This document shows positions 3,361-55,529 of a stretch of DNA of 64,000 nt, one piece after another. The position numbers were made by a program, and so were the translations under genes. The stretch's first letter is position 1, and the number at the start of each line of letters is the position of its first letter. The notes beneath the pieces were generated by a model. That model was not told the origin of the DNA and made no database searches. It saw only the letters and a list, made by a program, of their open reading frames with translations. The stretch is from Pestalotiopsis fici W106-1 (taxonomy: Eukaryota; Ascomycota; Sordariomycetes; Amphisphaeriales; Sporocadaceae), in contig NW_006917093.1 of the NCBI RefSeq assembly GCF_000516985.1, positions 4,154,001 to 4,218,000 on the forward strand, in the 5' to 3' direction.

Positions 3361-5274
3361 AGGCTGTGTCAACTCGACATTCAACTGCCACTACTCTTAC
3401 TTGACGAGCATATCTGTCCTTTGCCACCATGGCATTCTCTTTGTTTGGCACGGATACACCCAGATTTGGCGCCACGATACACCTCGAAGGATACGTAGAG
3501 ATTGATTGATTTACCTACACTATACGGCGATTAGCAAGACTTGAACCACATTTTTTAATATAATGCATGATAATTCTAATTATGTCAGGACCTTTTTTCA
3601 CTGAGAAAGTCCTGTTACCAATATTCCGATGGCTTGTGTACGAAATCCCCAGATATTCAACAAAGAAAGAAAGAGAAGATGCCATTGACTACTAGGTACG
3701 GTGAGGGAAATACCCATGTGCTAGTCACCCCAAATCCACAACGTGTCACGTTATAGCGGCTTGCGTCAATAGTCGTCATGGCACCGAGAATCTCAAAAAG
3801 CTTTTCCAGAGTGCCGAACATGAATGATTATCTCTACACGCCCAAGAAGGTATCCAAGTCATCGGGCCGAGAAATGTTGAATGATTCATGTTCGAGTGAC
3901 AGAAAAACAAACAAATGCTCATATGCAAGGCGGGATCCACCATCTGGGTACGTACGGGGCAGATATTCCGAAATGAGACTTCTTGCAGGATTTTATTGCC
4001 ATGCATGCATTCAGATATCTAAGCGCCTTGCTTGCATGAGACCCCTGGATGACGGACAAGGCTTGGAACCGTCATAGCGGCCTGTGTTTGTTCGTGCAGG
4101 TCCATGTCTGGTCTCGTCGCCAGTTTTCTTTCTTTGTTTGCGGTATTCATTGAAGGCGGTCCGTTGATGTGATCATTCCATTTACGCTCAATTGCTGGCC
4201 TTGTCCGAAAAAATAAATGACGTGCAATAGAAGCTGGCGACCAATCTGACCCCTAGACAATCCGCCTGTTGCGATCAATTAAGTTCTGACTGTGTTTAAT
4301 TCAAGCTGGTGACAATGTGGCGAATCACTAGATTTTCAACTCCCTCATCACTTACATAGCCTAGCAGTCTGCATACGATTGCCGATATCCACGTAGATTG
4401 AGGTTCTTCTATCATTTAAGTGTAAGAAATCTATAAGAATGGAATTGCGCGTATTTGATTTTTGTTCGCTTTGAGGGAAGTATACTAAGAAGATATCGAT
4501 GAGTAGAACAAAAAGGTGATAAGTCAGAAGTCTTTTTTCAATTTTAATCTTTAATTCTTTTCACTCCCTTTGCTTTGATCATATTACAGATATGTTTGGA
4601 AGAAAGCATTCCTGATAAATTTAGGCATCACGTACCTCACCATTGGTAAAAATCTTGTCAAGCTTGAAGCTGTAACTGTAATAGTCATAATTGTCACATT
4701 AGGACATTTCTCATCTTTGCCAGAGTCAGGGAAGCAGAAGTAAGAGGCCAGGACAGATGTGGTAATATGGTTCGAGTTACTTTGTTTGTCGTGCATGTCT
4801 CAAAGGACAAATGATACCAATAGCGCAGTCGCTCAGATCTTGACTTCGTGCCATGGAGGGGGGGAGAACGACTTTGGTACTGACGTGCGTCTGGATATCC
4901 GACAGACGTGGCACGCTTTAGCACTTGCAACATACGGATTCAAACAAGAATTGAAGCGCCAGCTAACATCAATCACCGACAGCGTATTACTTGGGTTTGA
5001 CTTCAATAGGGCTTATGAGATCCCCCGCCCTAAGGTAAGTCCGGTGGCGTCTTTGGCCTTGCCCCAAGGTAATCTTGACGTTGAAGTATTGCCCAATTTG
5101 ACTTTTAGGGTAATCGTCTATCACCGCGCAACATGGCGGGGTGGTGCAAGTCATATTGGTGTACGAGAAACAACTCGCAGTTCATCAAATAAACCGGATG
5201 GCCGCAAGTCATTTTTACTTCGCATACTACTCTCATATCAATAACCAGTTTCCAAAATACGAAATCGTATCAGT
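3361..5274. other. Intergenic, AT-rich, no gene seen
   Basis: The stretch of about 1.9 kb has many short A/T runs, especially 4100-4700. An open frame at 4759-5244 (161 codons) is the longest here. It has no recognisable domain, no signal peptide and runs through the likely promoter of the next gene, so I do not call it. Confidence 0.6.
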
Positions 5275-6481
5275 ATGGCCATCGAAACACCCTTGTCCGA
5301 GAAACCAACGATCAATAGAGTTCCTCTATATGTGAATGATGGACTCTTGGCGCCTGATGAAGTCAAACTCCTGCGGCCATCGTATCCATCAGAGCCACTC
5401 GAGGTGCTCTGGAAACGCTACAGAGAAGATGGCTACATCTTTCTTAAGGGGCTGTTACCAAGGGAAGACGTTTGCTCGGCCCGAGGTTCCTACTTCCAAC
5501 GTCTACAGCCCTGCGGCGTGATCGATCCGGACTCGGACCCACGCGATGGCATCTTCAACGCCTCGGGCGGCGCCAAGGCAGACTATCCCGGCGTAGGCGT
5601 CGAAGCGGGGAGCGGCGCCCCGGCCACCAGCAACGAGGAGCTCTTTACGGAGCTCGCGCTCAAGGCTCATACCGACGAGTGGTACATTGGATCTCCAGAT
5701 GGTAAAACTCCCGGCCTTGTGAACCACCCGCTGCTACTCCAGTTTGTGGCCGACTTTACCGGCTGGGGTGACAAGACTTTGCCTATACGCCGGACTTTGT
5801 TGAGGAACAATACCCCTGGCAATAAAGCGATTGGTGTGCACTACGATCAAATCTTCCTGAGGTACGGCGAGCCGAGCGTCCTGACCGCTTGGGTGCCTGT
5901 TGGTGATATCGCGCTGGATGGAGGCGGGCTTATATATCTTGAAGACGGTGATTCTATCCCAATCACATGCGTCATTGACAGGTTGTGGGTACTGATGAGA
6001 CAAAAAAGGCGACCAGCTGGGCAAACAGATTGAGAGCGAATGCACGGCCAAGGCCAAGGCCGCCGGTCTTGATGACGCTGAAGTGCGAAATGCTTTTAAC
6101 AGTCAAATGATGAAGACAGGCTGGTTGAGTCCTGATCCGGCGAAGTTTGGGAGAAAGCACGGTAGAAAATGGCTCGTCACCGCCTACGAGGCAGGAGACG
6201 TTGTGTTACACTCGGCATATATGGTGAGACAGATGATCTTGCTTGTCCTGGTCATTGGTCTAACACGAGGCTGACTGTCAATTTATTCTAGATCCATGCA
6301 TCCACCGTCAATCATGACAAGGAGGGACGAATCAGGGTAGGGACTGACTTGCGATTTGTCAACTCGGCCAGGCCGTGGGATACGGTACGTGATCAAGTAT
6401 TTGTTTTTTTCTAGAATTTTTGATGCGCTAATTGCTTGTAAGCGTTGGTCAAACCACTTTACCTTTACAGATGGGTTATAA
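5275..6481 (+). CDS. Phytanoyl-CoA dioxygenase (PhyH) family Fe(II)/2-oxoglutarate enzyme
   Basis: Four exons (5275-5947, 6009-6223, 6292-6384, 6443-6481) give 339 aa, and all three introns close in frame. The iron-binding facial triad is visible: HYD at 189-191, and a distal His at 298 in MIHAST. Arg309 or Arg311 would bind 2-oxoglutarate. The C-terminal GTDLRFVN and RWSNHFTFTDGL are usual for the fungal PhyH group. These soluble enzymes hydroxylate small molecules, often in secondary metabolism or lipid turnover; the substrate cannot be told from sequence. The nearest neighbours are unrelated housekeeping or membrane genes, so context gives no pathway. The start is the first ATG in frame (MAIETPLSEKP). 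Confidence 0.85.
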
Positions 6482-51119: not shown

Positions 51120-54100
51120 ATGGCACAACAGAGGGATGGAGACATGCTAAGGGGAGATGTATTGGCGCAAACTTGCAATGATTTGCTGGCAAATATATCG
51201 CATCTCGAAGAGTCGCAGCTCAGCGAGATGCAGGACGTTCGCGCCCACCTCGAAGCTATGAGAGAACTTCTGCGTCGTCTCCAGCCTCTCGAAGGTCGCA
51301 CATGGACCCAGGTTATTCTTGACGAGTGTAGGAATGCATTCGGTCAGTTATCTATGGCGGCTGAAAATGGATCGTCTAATAGCGTTTCGGAGCCTGTAAG
51401 GAATGAAATGTCACAAAAAGCCCAAGCGGTTAAGGATTTGGTTCATGTTCGAAACAAGCTGTCTCTGGCTTCGAACCTCAGTCTATGGTAAGTCTTGTCG
51501 CGACGATGAAGGGGGGTCATTTAGCATGGCATTATAGCTGAGGTAATTCGCAGCAATGAAGACCTCAAAGATGGAGTCATGATCGAAACTGTTCACGAGG
51601 GACTTGATGCAATCTCGCAGGAGTTGATGGGTTCTGCGAATGTCATCATGCCATACACTTTTCTACGTGAAGGTCATAAGACGTTCGAGTTGCGTGAAGC
51701 CACACTAACTGACCACGGGACCGAGAGCACACACAAGATCATCTGCTCAAATTGCTCTTTCCACGAGATAGCATCTGTTGCTTCAACAAGAAGTATGAGG
51801 TTCGCTTGTCTTTGTCCATCAGATGAGGGCTCACATGATGGCGAACTCAGTTACCAAGGTAGGATCTGAAAAAGTATCCTAGTGCATTACAACTTAGATT
51901 ATCGACTTGAGGAGACGAATGTACCTAATCATCAGTAGTACTGCCTGCCACCTTCGTCGTTGAGCACCTACGTCCTATCCAAACGCGTGAGTGGCATATG
52001 GTCCTTTCGAGGCCACGAGATGACTCAATCGTTTCCATCATCATTTCCGAGACTCAAAAGACAGGTATGCCTCACAGAACGATTACTCTCCGATTTGAAA
52101 ACGCTCTGATTGTCTAGATGTCCGTGAGATTGAGGACTTTGCCCTGCGCATTGCGTCTATGTTCTCGCATGGTTTCGTGACAGGTACAAATTGTCACAAA
52201 ATACAATTGAAGGGTAATAATGTTTTCAGGCTGACCTCTGTGTGGTATGTATTGATACTATCAAAATAGTCAATTCACACACACAAGAAGCACATTAACG
52301 AAGAGTCAGCCCTCCTGGAGCTTTCGCAAGCAGTCTTCCGTGGCGATTTGAGTTCGCGTCGTCTGCGAGGACTGCTACTGTAGCTTGGCAGCCACAACAG
52401 ATACAGCTAAGGCATTACTCAGTTGCTCAATGGCCGAGGACAGCCAATAAAGATACTTTGGATCATTGCGACTTTTATCCGGAATCTAGCGCCGAGATAC
52501 GCATTCTCAGAGGTAACTCGGAGACAGAAGACTGTTTCTGTATACGATGTTCGTACTACACATCTGATGAATCGAAATCGCAAAGGGAAATGCTGACAAA
52601 TTCTTTCAGTCTTCAGGCACTCTGTAATTAAGCGCGGATTAGTTGAAAATCCCTTGTGTGTGACAATATCCAAGATCGAGGTTGACAACAGTCGCGGAAT
52701 TTCCGCAATGAATTTTCACTTCAATAATGCACAAGGTCTGGGTCAGCCACAAGCAATACTATCATGTTCTAACACCCATACCAGACGTGGAAAATTGGAC
52801 ATCATACCTTCTAGCTACCAGGCAAAAGCTAGCTCAGCTTTACGTTCAAGGGCCGTTTGCATTTGAAAAAGAGATCTATCGCCAGTGAGTACATACCCAT
52901 GCCCTCGTCACTACTTTCGTGCTGGGAAGTCGTAGTGATAAGTAATCTCATGGTCTTCTCCATAGGCAATCTGCCACACTTCAGCACATAACAGAGCAAA
53001 GACACTACGACGATCAGGATCTGGAAGTACGGGTTATCTCTTCCAAACCAGATTTCCCAGCCAAAACCCAGACGCGCTTGTTATTTAAGCGACTTAATCG
53101 TTCAGGATCTCTTTGCCTAGAATGTAAGCGTTGTAATCCTTTGCCGGTCCTCTCGAGAGGATGTTTGGGCCTCTATTAACCATGGAAAGTTGGATCTGTA
53201 ATTGAGAAGGTTGCGCAGCACGGGCTGCATGGATCCTTGGATTTGGTCACCTTTTGGACCTTTGATCTCCGTAGCTCAAATGGCCCCGTCCTTGAGCAGA
53301 CCAATTGGATGAAGTTGACGGCCAAGGGTCAGAATCGCAAGTTTGTTGCCTCATCGACACAAGATGGACCACAAATTTTAAGGTAGGTACCTAGCGACAT
53401 CAAAACCTGATATGTCCAATGAAATGCTAATGTTGACAAGCGAGAAAATTGTCTCTTCGGAAGAATGGCTGGACAACATTGACGTCTTGAAAAGCGTGAT
53501 GGAGGCCTCGGGCTTACAGAAACGTGGGCACAAGACTGTAAAGGTCTGCGTCATCGACACGGGATTCGACCCGAAAGACAAGAATCTACCCAAAATCAAA
53601 GGCTACAAAGATTTTGTGAATCCAGAAGCCACCAGCAAGAGTGACAATACTTGGCATGGCACAACTTCAGCGAGCATTATTCTGTCGATTTTTGACGGCT
53701 GTGAATTATATGTCGCCAGAGTGTTTCAATCCGATGACACTGACGACAGGACGGAACCGGAACTGATGGCCCAGGTATGTTTACACCAACTTAGTGCTTA
53801 ACGGAATACGTTAAGTTAACATAACACCCGCCAAGGCCATAGAATGGTCGATTACACCCGAAGTTGATGTCGATATCATCAGTATATCTGCAGGCTTCTT
53901 GTACCACTCACCCAAGCTGCAGGATGCTGTACAGAAGGCCAGCGCCGCTAACAAACTCATATTTGCCGCTGCATCTAACTGGGGCAACCTGGGTCCCGTG
54001 GCATTCCCGGCGCGCCACGACCTGTACACAATATGCGTCTTCTCTACCGACACATACAATCGAGCCTCTAAATTCAACCCAGAACGAAGACCGGATGCAC

Positions 54101-54441
54101 ACAATTTCGCCATACTTGGGGAAGACTTTGAGCACCCTCGCGATGGAAAGCAGCGGGTGTCTGGAACTAGCGCCTCCACGGCGGCAGCGGCAGGCCTCGC
54201 GGCTCTCATTATTGACTTTTCGCGACAACCTGACAATGTCGGGGCAATAGTGAGGGTGGGAGATGTCAGTAAAATGGTCGGAATGATTGCCATATTCAAT
54301 TTCATGTCAGTACGGGCCGGCGAATTCAAATGCATCATGCCACAGAAATTGCTTCCGGTCCATCATCGTGATGGGACTAGGCAAGAGAACAGAGCTTATG
54401 TGCGAGAGAGTCTGAAGAGGGCAATGGAACAGGCCAATTAA
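51120..54441 (+). CDS. Subtilisin-like (S8) serine protease with long N-terminal domain
   Basis: Intron-rich gene of about 870 aa. Firm exons: 51120-51487, 51554-51858, 51936-52064, 52118 to about 52244, 52610-52735, 52785-52884, 52966-53123, 53190-53382, 53441-53774, 53836-54441, each joined in phase. One or two small exons between 52288 and 52512 are uncertain, but frame-keeping splices exist, so I do not call it broken. The N-terminal 550 or so residues are alpha-helical in character and resemble the N-terminal domain that fungi put before death-associated proteases. The C-terminal S8 domain has all three catalytic residues: Asp in VIDTG (53556-53558), His in WHGTT (53655-53657) and Ser in SGTSAST (54179-54181). 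There is no signal peptide, so it is intracellular, unlike digestive subtilases. It is convergent with the gasdermin-like gene 122 bp away and is likely its activating protease. Confidence 0.8.
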
Positions 54442-54563
54442 TCTCACAATCACTGGGCCTGTACCCGACTGCTGGGACCACGTCATGGCTTTTAGGAGAT
54501 AGCATATATCCAGCAACTTGCAGATCGGGCTTGCGAGTAATTGACTGTGTGATTAAATCCTTC

Positions 54564-55529
54564 TCAAGCCTCAGCCCAGTCGCCAGCGTCCAACACAACA
54601 GCCTCTTGAAGCTCGTCATCTTCAATGACCTGGAAGGAGCTCAATCCTTCTCTCTTGAGAATAGCTGCGACATCTATCTGCTTCCCGCCGCCTACTTCGA
54701 AGGTAGCGCGGTGCGTATAGGGGTCAAGAGACCAGTCGGTCATGAGAATCCCTTTGTGCACCTTGGCAAGGCGGATTGCCCAGATAAAGTCCGAGACCTC
54801 GTCTTCTTTGGTATTCTCTGTCCTATCGACGCCATTTTCGGTTGTAGCTTGGCCTGTTGCCACGCCGGGTACATGTCTATATCGAGTTTCCGGCACATAA
54901 TTAGAACGATATGCGTTGATTTCTAGGAGGGAAGTCTGTTGAAACGTTGAAACTTACAATTCCGGGCCCCCACCAACTTCTACGAACTTGGTGATCTCTT
55001 CAGACCGCTGCCCCGCTCTTGCAACCTTGATCCCTGTAATCATAAAGAACGACCAGTTCGATTGATTGCCAATATGCTTCTTCAGCTCGTCTCTTTCGAG
55101 GCACTGTTCGACATAGAGGCGAGTAGGCTGTACGATGTACGTATCGAGGCGAGAATAGTGCTCGTGCTGGGTTATTGACCTTTGGAACGCGAGCTTGATG
55201 CTGGCCTTGGCAGTAAGCATGCCCAATGCTGCGGCAGCGGGTGCACCGGCGCCGAGCGCAGCAGAGGTTAGGAAACCGCGCTTGCGCTCCCAGTCAAAAT
55301 TCAAGATGTGTGAAGGAAAGACTCGCATGCGTGTGAGAAATGGTACGATGGCGCCGGAATTGATGGGGAAGTCTATGTGCTTAAGGTCTGCGACACAATG
55401 GCCTAGGCACAGCGGGGCTTGCGAGTCGTCTCCATTGCCAGCAAGGATGGCATCTTCAGGACCCGGCGGATAGTGTGTTTGTCGAAGTTTAAACCAGACC
55501 TTTTCCATAGCGTGTCGAGTCGAATACAT
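54564..55529 (-). CDS. Gasdermin-like pore-forming cell-death protein
   Basis: Exons are 55529-54958 and 54876-54564 (intron 81 nt, GTAAGT...ATATAG, CTAAT branch), giving 294 aa. A second in-frame ATG at 55508 is an alternative start. The length and pattern fit fungal gasdermin homologues (RCD-1, HET-Q1). They share an opening YPPGPEDAILAGN-like segment, strands at PLCLGHCVADLKHIDFP and a Gly/Ala-rich helix-hairpin stretch at about 87-105 (FLTSAALGAGAPAAAALG). A conserved WSFFMITGIKVARAG block and FIWAIRLAKVHKG follow. The family forms membrane pores after proteolysis removes a short inhibitory C-terminus. Here the last 40-50 residues (acidic, ending DWAEA) would be that segment. The call is from remembered family pattern and genomic context; no search was possible. 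Confidence 0.78.

Follow-up and report, generated by a model that had tools for sequence, protein, structure and literature searches.

A 64,000-nucleotide stretch of the genome of the plant-endophytic fungus Pestalotiopsis fici W106-1 (contig NW_006917093.1, positions 4,154,001 to 4,218,000; hereafter the window) carries, at its positions 51,120 to 55,529, a subtilisin-like protease gene of family S8 and a gasdermin gene that converge on one another. With a probability of roughly 80%, the pair is a two-gene regulated cell-death module of the fungal gasdermin and HET-Q2-like protease kind, in which a protease triggers gasdermin-mediated death. By analogy with characterised relatives, sensing, cleavage, pore formation and death would proceed as follows. 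The protease would be a cytoplasmic receptor-protease, its N-terminal ~570 residues both keeping it inactive and sensing a cue. Once activated, the S8 domain would cut the neighbouring gasdermin near Phe250 and so remove an acidic inhibitory tail of roughly 44 residues, and the freed pore-forming part would enter the plasma membrane, upon which the hyphal compartment dies. Since both genes are present in one genome, the protease would have to be held inactive until triggered. The reading is carried by features observed directly: both genes, their intact catalytic residues, the homology and fold of the gasdermin, the conservation of its tail and of the linkage, and the correlated divergence of the two proteins.

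The gasdermin gene lies on the minus strand in two exons, 55508-54958 (from 55529 if translation begins at the first methionine) and 54876-54564, separated by a single 81-bp GT-AG intron (54957-54877). It encodes 287 amino acids, or 294 from the first methionine. The original prediction, made from the DNA letters alone, described a 294-aa gene with gasdermin-like features. That length is right from the first methionine, and the second, seven residues later at 55508, appears to be the better start because 20 of 22 aligned family members begin there, the other two carrying long extensions. The deposited protein PFICI_05409 (P0001, 287 aa) corresponds to the window gasdermin from the second methionine, with 100% identity over 98% of the query. 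In phmmer searches against PDB sequences, RCD-1 was the only solved relative reached: RCD-1-1 (8jyz_A) matched residues 7-244 with an E-value of 1.6e-38 and RCD-1-2 matched with 6.3e-28. No Pfam family matched the protein at E up to 1, and no bacterial gasdermin sequence in the PDB did so at E up to 10. An AlphaFold2 model of P0001 built on 32 sequences (mean predicted local distance difference test score, pLDDT, 65.4) superposed on 8jyz_A with a Foldseek E-value of 1.7e-17, TM-scores of 0.56/0.67 and a root-mean-square deviation of 5.4 over 241 columns. RCD-1 chains filled the first 12 places in the Foldseek search; bacterial, Trichoplax and D-type gasdermins came next, and pores of the complement, perforin-like and pleurotolysin kinds ranked lower. 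Both the gasdermin-like features and the fold check proposed with them were upheld by these matches and, as judged from sequence and model, the product of 54564..55508 is a fungal gasdermin.

The HET-Q2-like (Q2L) S8 protease gene occupies 51120..54441 of the plus strand and consists of 11 exons (51120-51487, 51554-51858, 51939-52064, 52118-52244, 52310-52512, 52610-52735, 52785-52884, 52966-53123, 53190-53382, 53441-53774 and 53836-54441) and 10 introns. The joined reading frame is open over 881 codons (881 aa). The introns measure 49-97 bp; the donor is GTC in one of them (52736-52784) and GTA or GTG in the other nine. Seven homologues align with the product, namely P0086 of Trichoderma virens, which is 54% identical over 99% of it, and six further proteins. 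The subtilisin-like domain spans about residues 575-881 (53457..54438, plus strand, one intron inside), and Pfam Peptidase_S8 (PF00082) was matched at residues 600-807 with E 2e-20. Residues D608, H641, N728 and S792 are invariant in the eight aligned sequences, the window's included, and their equivalents are invariant in 39/39 protease homologues, in agreement with the intact catalytic residues that had been predicted. The P0086 model has a subtilisin fold, and the 50 matches listed by each of Foldseek and VIA-align in whole-model searches were all subtilisin-like. The protease had also been called intracellular, a status judged here by hydropathy only: the best 19-residue mean was 0.42 for segments that start within the first 60 positions and 1.52 overall, the latter inside the S8 domain. 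On these gene models the two genes are convergent and 122 bp apart, just as originally predicted.

Linkage of the two genes recurs in other fungi. For the gasdermin, 85 homologous matches were listed, 51 of them with NCBI names, and these were compared with 85 listed protease matches. A related protease was found for 21 of the 51 named gasdermins, on a consecutive locus tag in 14 cases and on the same contig, as judged by its length, in seven; continued linkage among homologues had been the original prediction's own test. The linked pairs include Talaromyces (Eurotiomycetes) and Stagonosporopsis (Dothideomycetes) besides Sordariomycetes. Distance matrices for the gasdermin and for the last 330 protease residues were correlated (r 0.932, n=20 pairs, 0/9999 permutations as high), with three of the 20 pairs joining proteins under different strain or entry names (T. 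virens; T. asperelloides with T. asperellum; F. oxysporum P0056/P0126). The two trees agreed in their main clades but differed in some branches.

The gasdermin runs 50 residues past its match to RCD-1-1 and 44 past Phe250, and this segment is conserved in the family. The putative inhibitory tail (residues 251-294; 54567..54698, minus strand) has a mass of 4.67 kDa and a net charge of -8 over 44 aa. The acidic C-terminus of the original prediction was found in every one of the 32 aligned gasdermins (window's included), with tails of 38-59 aa and net charges of -7 to -18. The mass compares with that lost by HET-Q1 of Podospora anserina, which sheds ~5 kDa from its C-terminus and is probably cut at F238 (PMC12881547). 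Phe250 (54699..54701, minus strand), as the presumed counterpart of F238, is the candidate cleavage position. Phenylalanine is kept at this position in 30/32 aligned gasdermins, and the second exon of the C6 paralogue, read by eye, seems to keep an equivalent.

It is unlikely that the gasdermin instead works as RCD-1 does, in a cleavage-independent allorecognition in which a divergent allele met after hyphal fusion activates it and the protease is incidental. Such a reading would suit the fact that the sole solved relative by sequence is RCD-1, which becomes active when two alleles are co-expressed and is not controlled by cleavage (PMC12881547), and also the strong divergence of the gasdermin within its genus (66% identity to Pestalotiopsis sp. 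9143b vs 67% to T. virens). However, the acidic tail of 38-59 residues is present in 32/32 aligned sequences, and RCD-1-1 is matched no further than residue 244. On the RCD-1-1 side the match ends at position 247 of a 261-residue chain (RCD-1-1 is 257 aa in PMC12881547), so that the short ending of the RCD-1 type after the pore-forming part is not shared by the window protein. The recurrence of a protease partner whose divergence tracks that of the gasdermin also argues against an incidental protease.

The original prediction had gone further and read the pair as a HET-Q-type locus active in heterokaryon incompatibility or immunity. A true het-Q-like locus, with natural strains of protease-only or gasdermin-only haplotype whose fusion is lethal, is likewise improbable. 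It would have a precedent in the proposal that het-Q1/het-Q2 came from a rearrangement that left the sensor constitutively active (PMC10197012). The het-Q1 and het-Q2 genes of Podospora are, however, idiomorphs, i.e., different genes at one locus (PMC12881547), whereas P. fici has intact copies of both genes side by side in a single genome, and their adjacency recurs in other fungi. The incompatibility label was not supported, and protease-triggered gasdermin death encoded by two adjacent genes is the preferred reading.

In the P. fici genome as a whole, at least 25 S8 loci were found, and about 1.0% of the sequence lies within 10 kb of them. With the window gasdermin as genome query (E up to 10), five gasdermin loci were listed and 5/5 were near an S8 match; the probability of this by chance is about 1e-10 (1e-8 if the window's own locus is set aside). 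The C1 gasdermin locus was matched with E 0.005 by the single query and with 3.5e-11 by the family profile. Two more gasdermins, C12 and C9, first came to light when S8 loci were scanned with a profile; as they were found by looking next to S8 genes, they do not enter the chance estimate. Genome-wide searches also recovered them, C12 with the C8 gasdermin as query (E 1.6e-9) and C9 with C12 as query (E 1.7e-27). The first profile matched C9 only weakly (E 0.42); an E-value of 6.8e-17 was reached only with a profile holding its paralogues, and C9 matched no PDB gasdermin. C12 matched RCD-1-2 with E 0.0054 only. All seven of the gasdermin loci found (7/7) have an S8 gene within 4 kb, in four convergent pairs (gaps of 122, 68, 90 and 125 bp between open frames) and three tandem pairs (364, 656 and 3807 bp). 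No gasdermin match away from S8 genes was seen in the genome-wide gasdermin searches. The idea of chance neighbours, with the protease serving protein turnover, could draw on the abundance of S8 genes in this genome and on the two S8 loci, L043 and L044, at which no gasdermin was detected by profile, but is contradicted by the linkage within P. fici (7/7 loci, and about 1e-10 for the first five) and across species (the 14 consecutive-tag cases).

Several points weigh against the module as proposed. Confidence in the P0001 model is modest, with the mean pLDDT given above and parts of the tail below 50. The equivalence of Phe250 and F238 was drawn from distance to the C-terminus alone, and the second exon of the C8 paralogue (L038), read by eye, has no Phe250 equivalent. 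Neither homologue search brought up the P. fici annotation of the protease, whose gene model therefore rests on homologues, and individual splice sites could be off. Among the 51 named gasdermins, 30 (P. fici's included) had no partner among the 85 listed proteases, which is not evidence of absence, and locus tags do not give the orientation of the pairs elsewhere.

The unusual part of the pair, and the one worth following, is the N-terminus of the protease. The long N-terminal part that had been put forward as a possible sensor amounts to ~570 extra residues, which are folded in the model of the homologue P0086 and match no Pfam family over cut-off. With boundaries taken from that model, a helical region of about residues 1-154 (51120..51647, plus strand, one intron inside), of which six Fusarium homologues cover only about 20%, is followed by a beta-rich middle region of about residues 155-558 (51648..53350, plus strand, introns inside), the putative sensor. 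A conserved Cys3-His set, C187, C208, C210 and H217 (51744..51836, plus strand), is a possible metal site and could bind metal or sense redox state. Its equivalents are kept in 17, 16, 16 and 16 of 18 N-terminal sequences, respectively, the misses being gaps for the cysteines (1, 2 and 2) and one Asn and one Gly for the histidine. In the model, the order of strands and helices in the beta-rich region suggests PH-like repeats, a reading borne out by no search run. Pfam searches gave INTS5_N at E 0.17 for the window N-terminus and WH_RGF3 (0.15), FTA4 (0.009) and CC142_N (0.01) for fragments of P0086, none over cut-off; FYVE_2 matched 2/39 protease homologues (best E 0.0038). Profiles of two N-terminal sub-regions yielded only weak matches to PDB sequences (Spt16, E 0.064; uridine phosphorylase, 0.53). 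The VIA-align whole-model search of P0086 barely tested its non-subtilisin parts, and a viral structure library returned several named subtilases or proteases, then low-probability rows.

The domain DUF7580 (PF24476) was ruled out as the sensor of the window protease. It was matched neither in that protein at E up to 1 nor at the locus in a genome scan, and the N-termini of the window kind (18 sequences) and of the DUF7580 kind (14) showed no profile relation (HHalign probability 0.1%; their S8 domains gave 100%). DUF7580 matched 17/39 protease homologues (E up to 0.01). The other six gasdermin-linked S8 loci of P. fici each have a DUF7580 match directly upstream of the S8 exons, so the window pair is the odd one out among the gasdermin-S8 pairs of this genome. 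Because closely related S8 domains carry either the window-type region or DUF7580, sensors may have been exchanged on one protease. We tentatively suggest, as something well short of probable, that the N-terminus of this protease clade, helical and beta-rich with a Cys3-His set, constitutes an undescribed receptor class for gasdermin activation, that such sensors are exchanged, and that the common history of gasdermin and protease departs from the species tree in a manner consistent with their transfer or duplication as a single cassette.

P. fici is a sordariomycete of the order Amphisphaeriales, and in the trees of both genes Pestalotiopsis falls with Trichoderma (Hypocreales). The species-tree tests were run after removal of three deep rows, on groups named once the first trees had been seen; for tree species other than P. 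fici, Trichoderma virens, Stagonosporopsis and Talaromyces, the orders are those to which we take them to belong. A clade of Hypocreales only was rejected for both genes, with p values of the approximately unbiased test (p-AU) of 4.6e-37 and 1.5e-8 (17 rows). A clade of Pestalotiopsis and Xylaria was rejected for the gasdermin (p-AU 0.001) and gave 0.045 for the protease, the Xylaria protease being a long branch. The two Pestalotiopsis alone as a clade were not rejected for the gasdermin (p-AU 0.346) and came together weakly (71/54) in the protease tree. The grouping could stem from transfer or from old duplication, which these tests would not tell apart. The P. fici gasdermin is 67% identical to that of Trichoderma virens and 66% to that of Pestalotiopsis sp. 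9143b (P0001 against P0003 and P0005), a sequence pattern that suggests fast evolution, transfer or old paralogues.

Some further features were noted at S8 loci and around the pair. At L043 (C2:1026000-1034500), a DUF7580-S8 protease gene (C2:1029893-1031822) had no detectable gasdermin in the 8.5 kb read; it is possibly an orphan sensor, or the neighbouring gasdermin is too divergent to see. At L037 (C6:1316000-1325500), three open frames of 321, 321 and 285 aa lie at 3547-6270 on the opposite strand, between the tandem S8 and gasdermin genes with the 3807-bp gap, and contain some Cys/His-rich stretches. In the window, the pair is flanked on the protease side by a 1222-aa open frame with VIT and von Willebrand factor A domains (PF08487, PF13768; 46947-50612, minus strand), and on the other side by a short-chain dehydrogenase (PF00106; 56196-56936, minus strand).

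The pair is real and conserved, and pairs of its kind are well known from fungi. Of ~1900 fungal gasdermin genes, about 80% lie in clusters with protease genes and about 63% in clusters with S8 genes (PMC10197012), so the original prediction was right that many lie near protease genes and the pairing is an ordinary one. Our literature searches returned no paper on this pair, which the catalogue of Clave et al. may list, no paper on DUF7580, and nothing that looked related for Pestalotiopsis with gasdermin or for gasdermin with subtilisin and PH domain. What the sensors of fungal gasdermins detect is described as a major open question (PMC12881547). The window pair offers a compact and intact place to attack the question of what a sensor-protease detects, one S8 type being found with two unrelated N-terminal regions and seven pairs occurring in one genome, four of them in the same convergent layout.

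Among known systems, the pair is a member of the Q2L two-gene clusters (Clave et al. 2022, cited through PMC10197012), in which a gasdermin lies beside a long S8 protease. The S8 proteases of such clusters are named Q2L, and an architecture was assigned in only about a third of ~1500 (PMC10197012); the window protease differs in an N-terminus without a recognised domain. Bacterial gasdermins also place a pore-former next to a protease gene, in defence clusters (PMC10197012), and their structures are among the fold matches of the P0001 model, but their PDB sequences were unmatched by the window protein. RCD-1 of Neurospora crassa (8jyz, 8jyx, 8jyy) resembles the window gasdermin in the sequence and fold of the pore-forming part; unlike it, RCD-1 is cleavage-independent, and the matched region ends ahead of the acidic tail. 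HET-Q1/HET-Q2 of Podospora anserina share with the pair a gasdermin with a short C-terminal extension of close to ~5 kDa and an S8 protease, and are set apart, by description in PMC12881547, as idiomorphs that meet only after fusion, whereas the window genes lie together in one genome.

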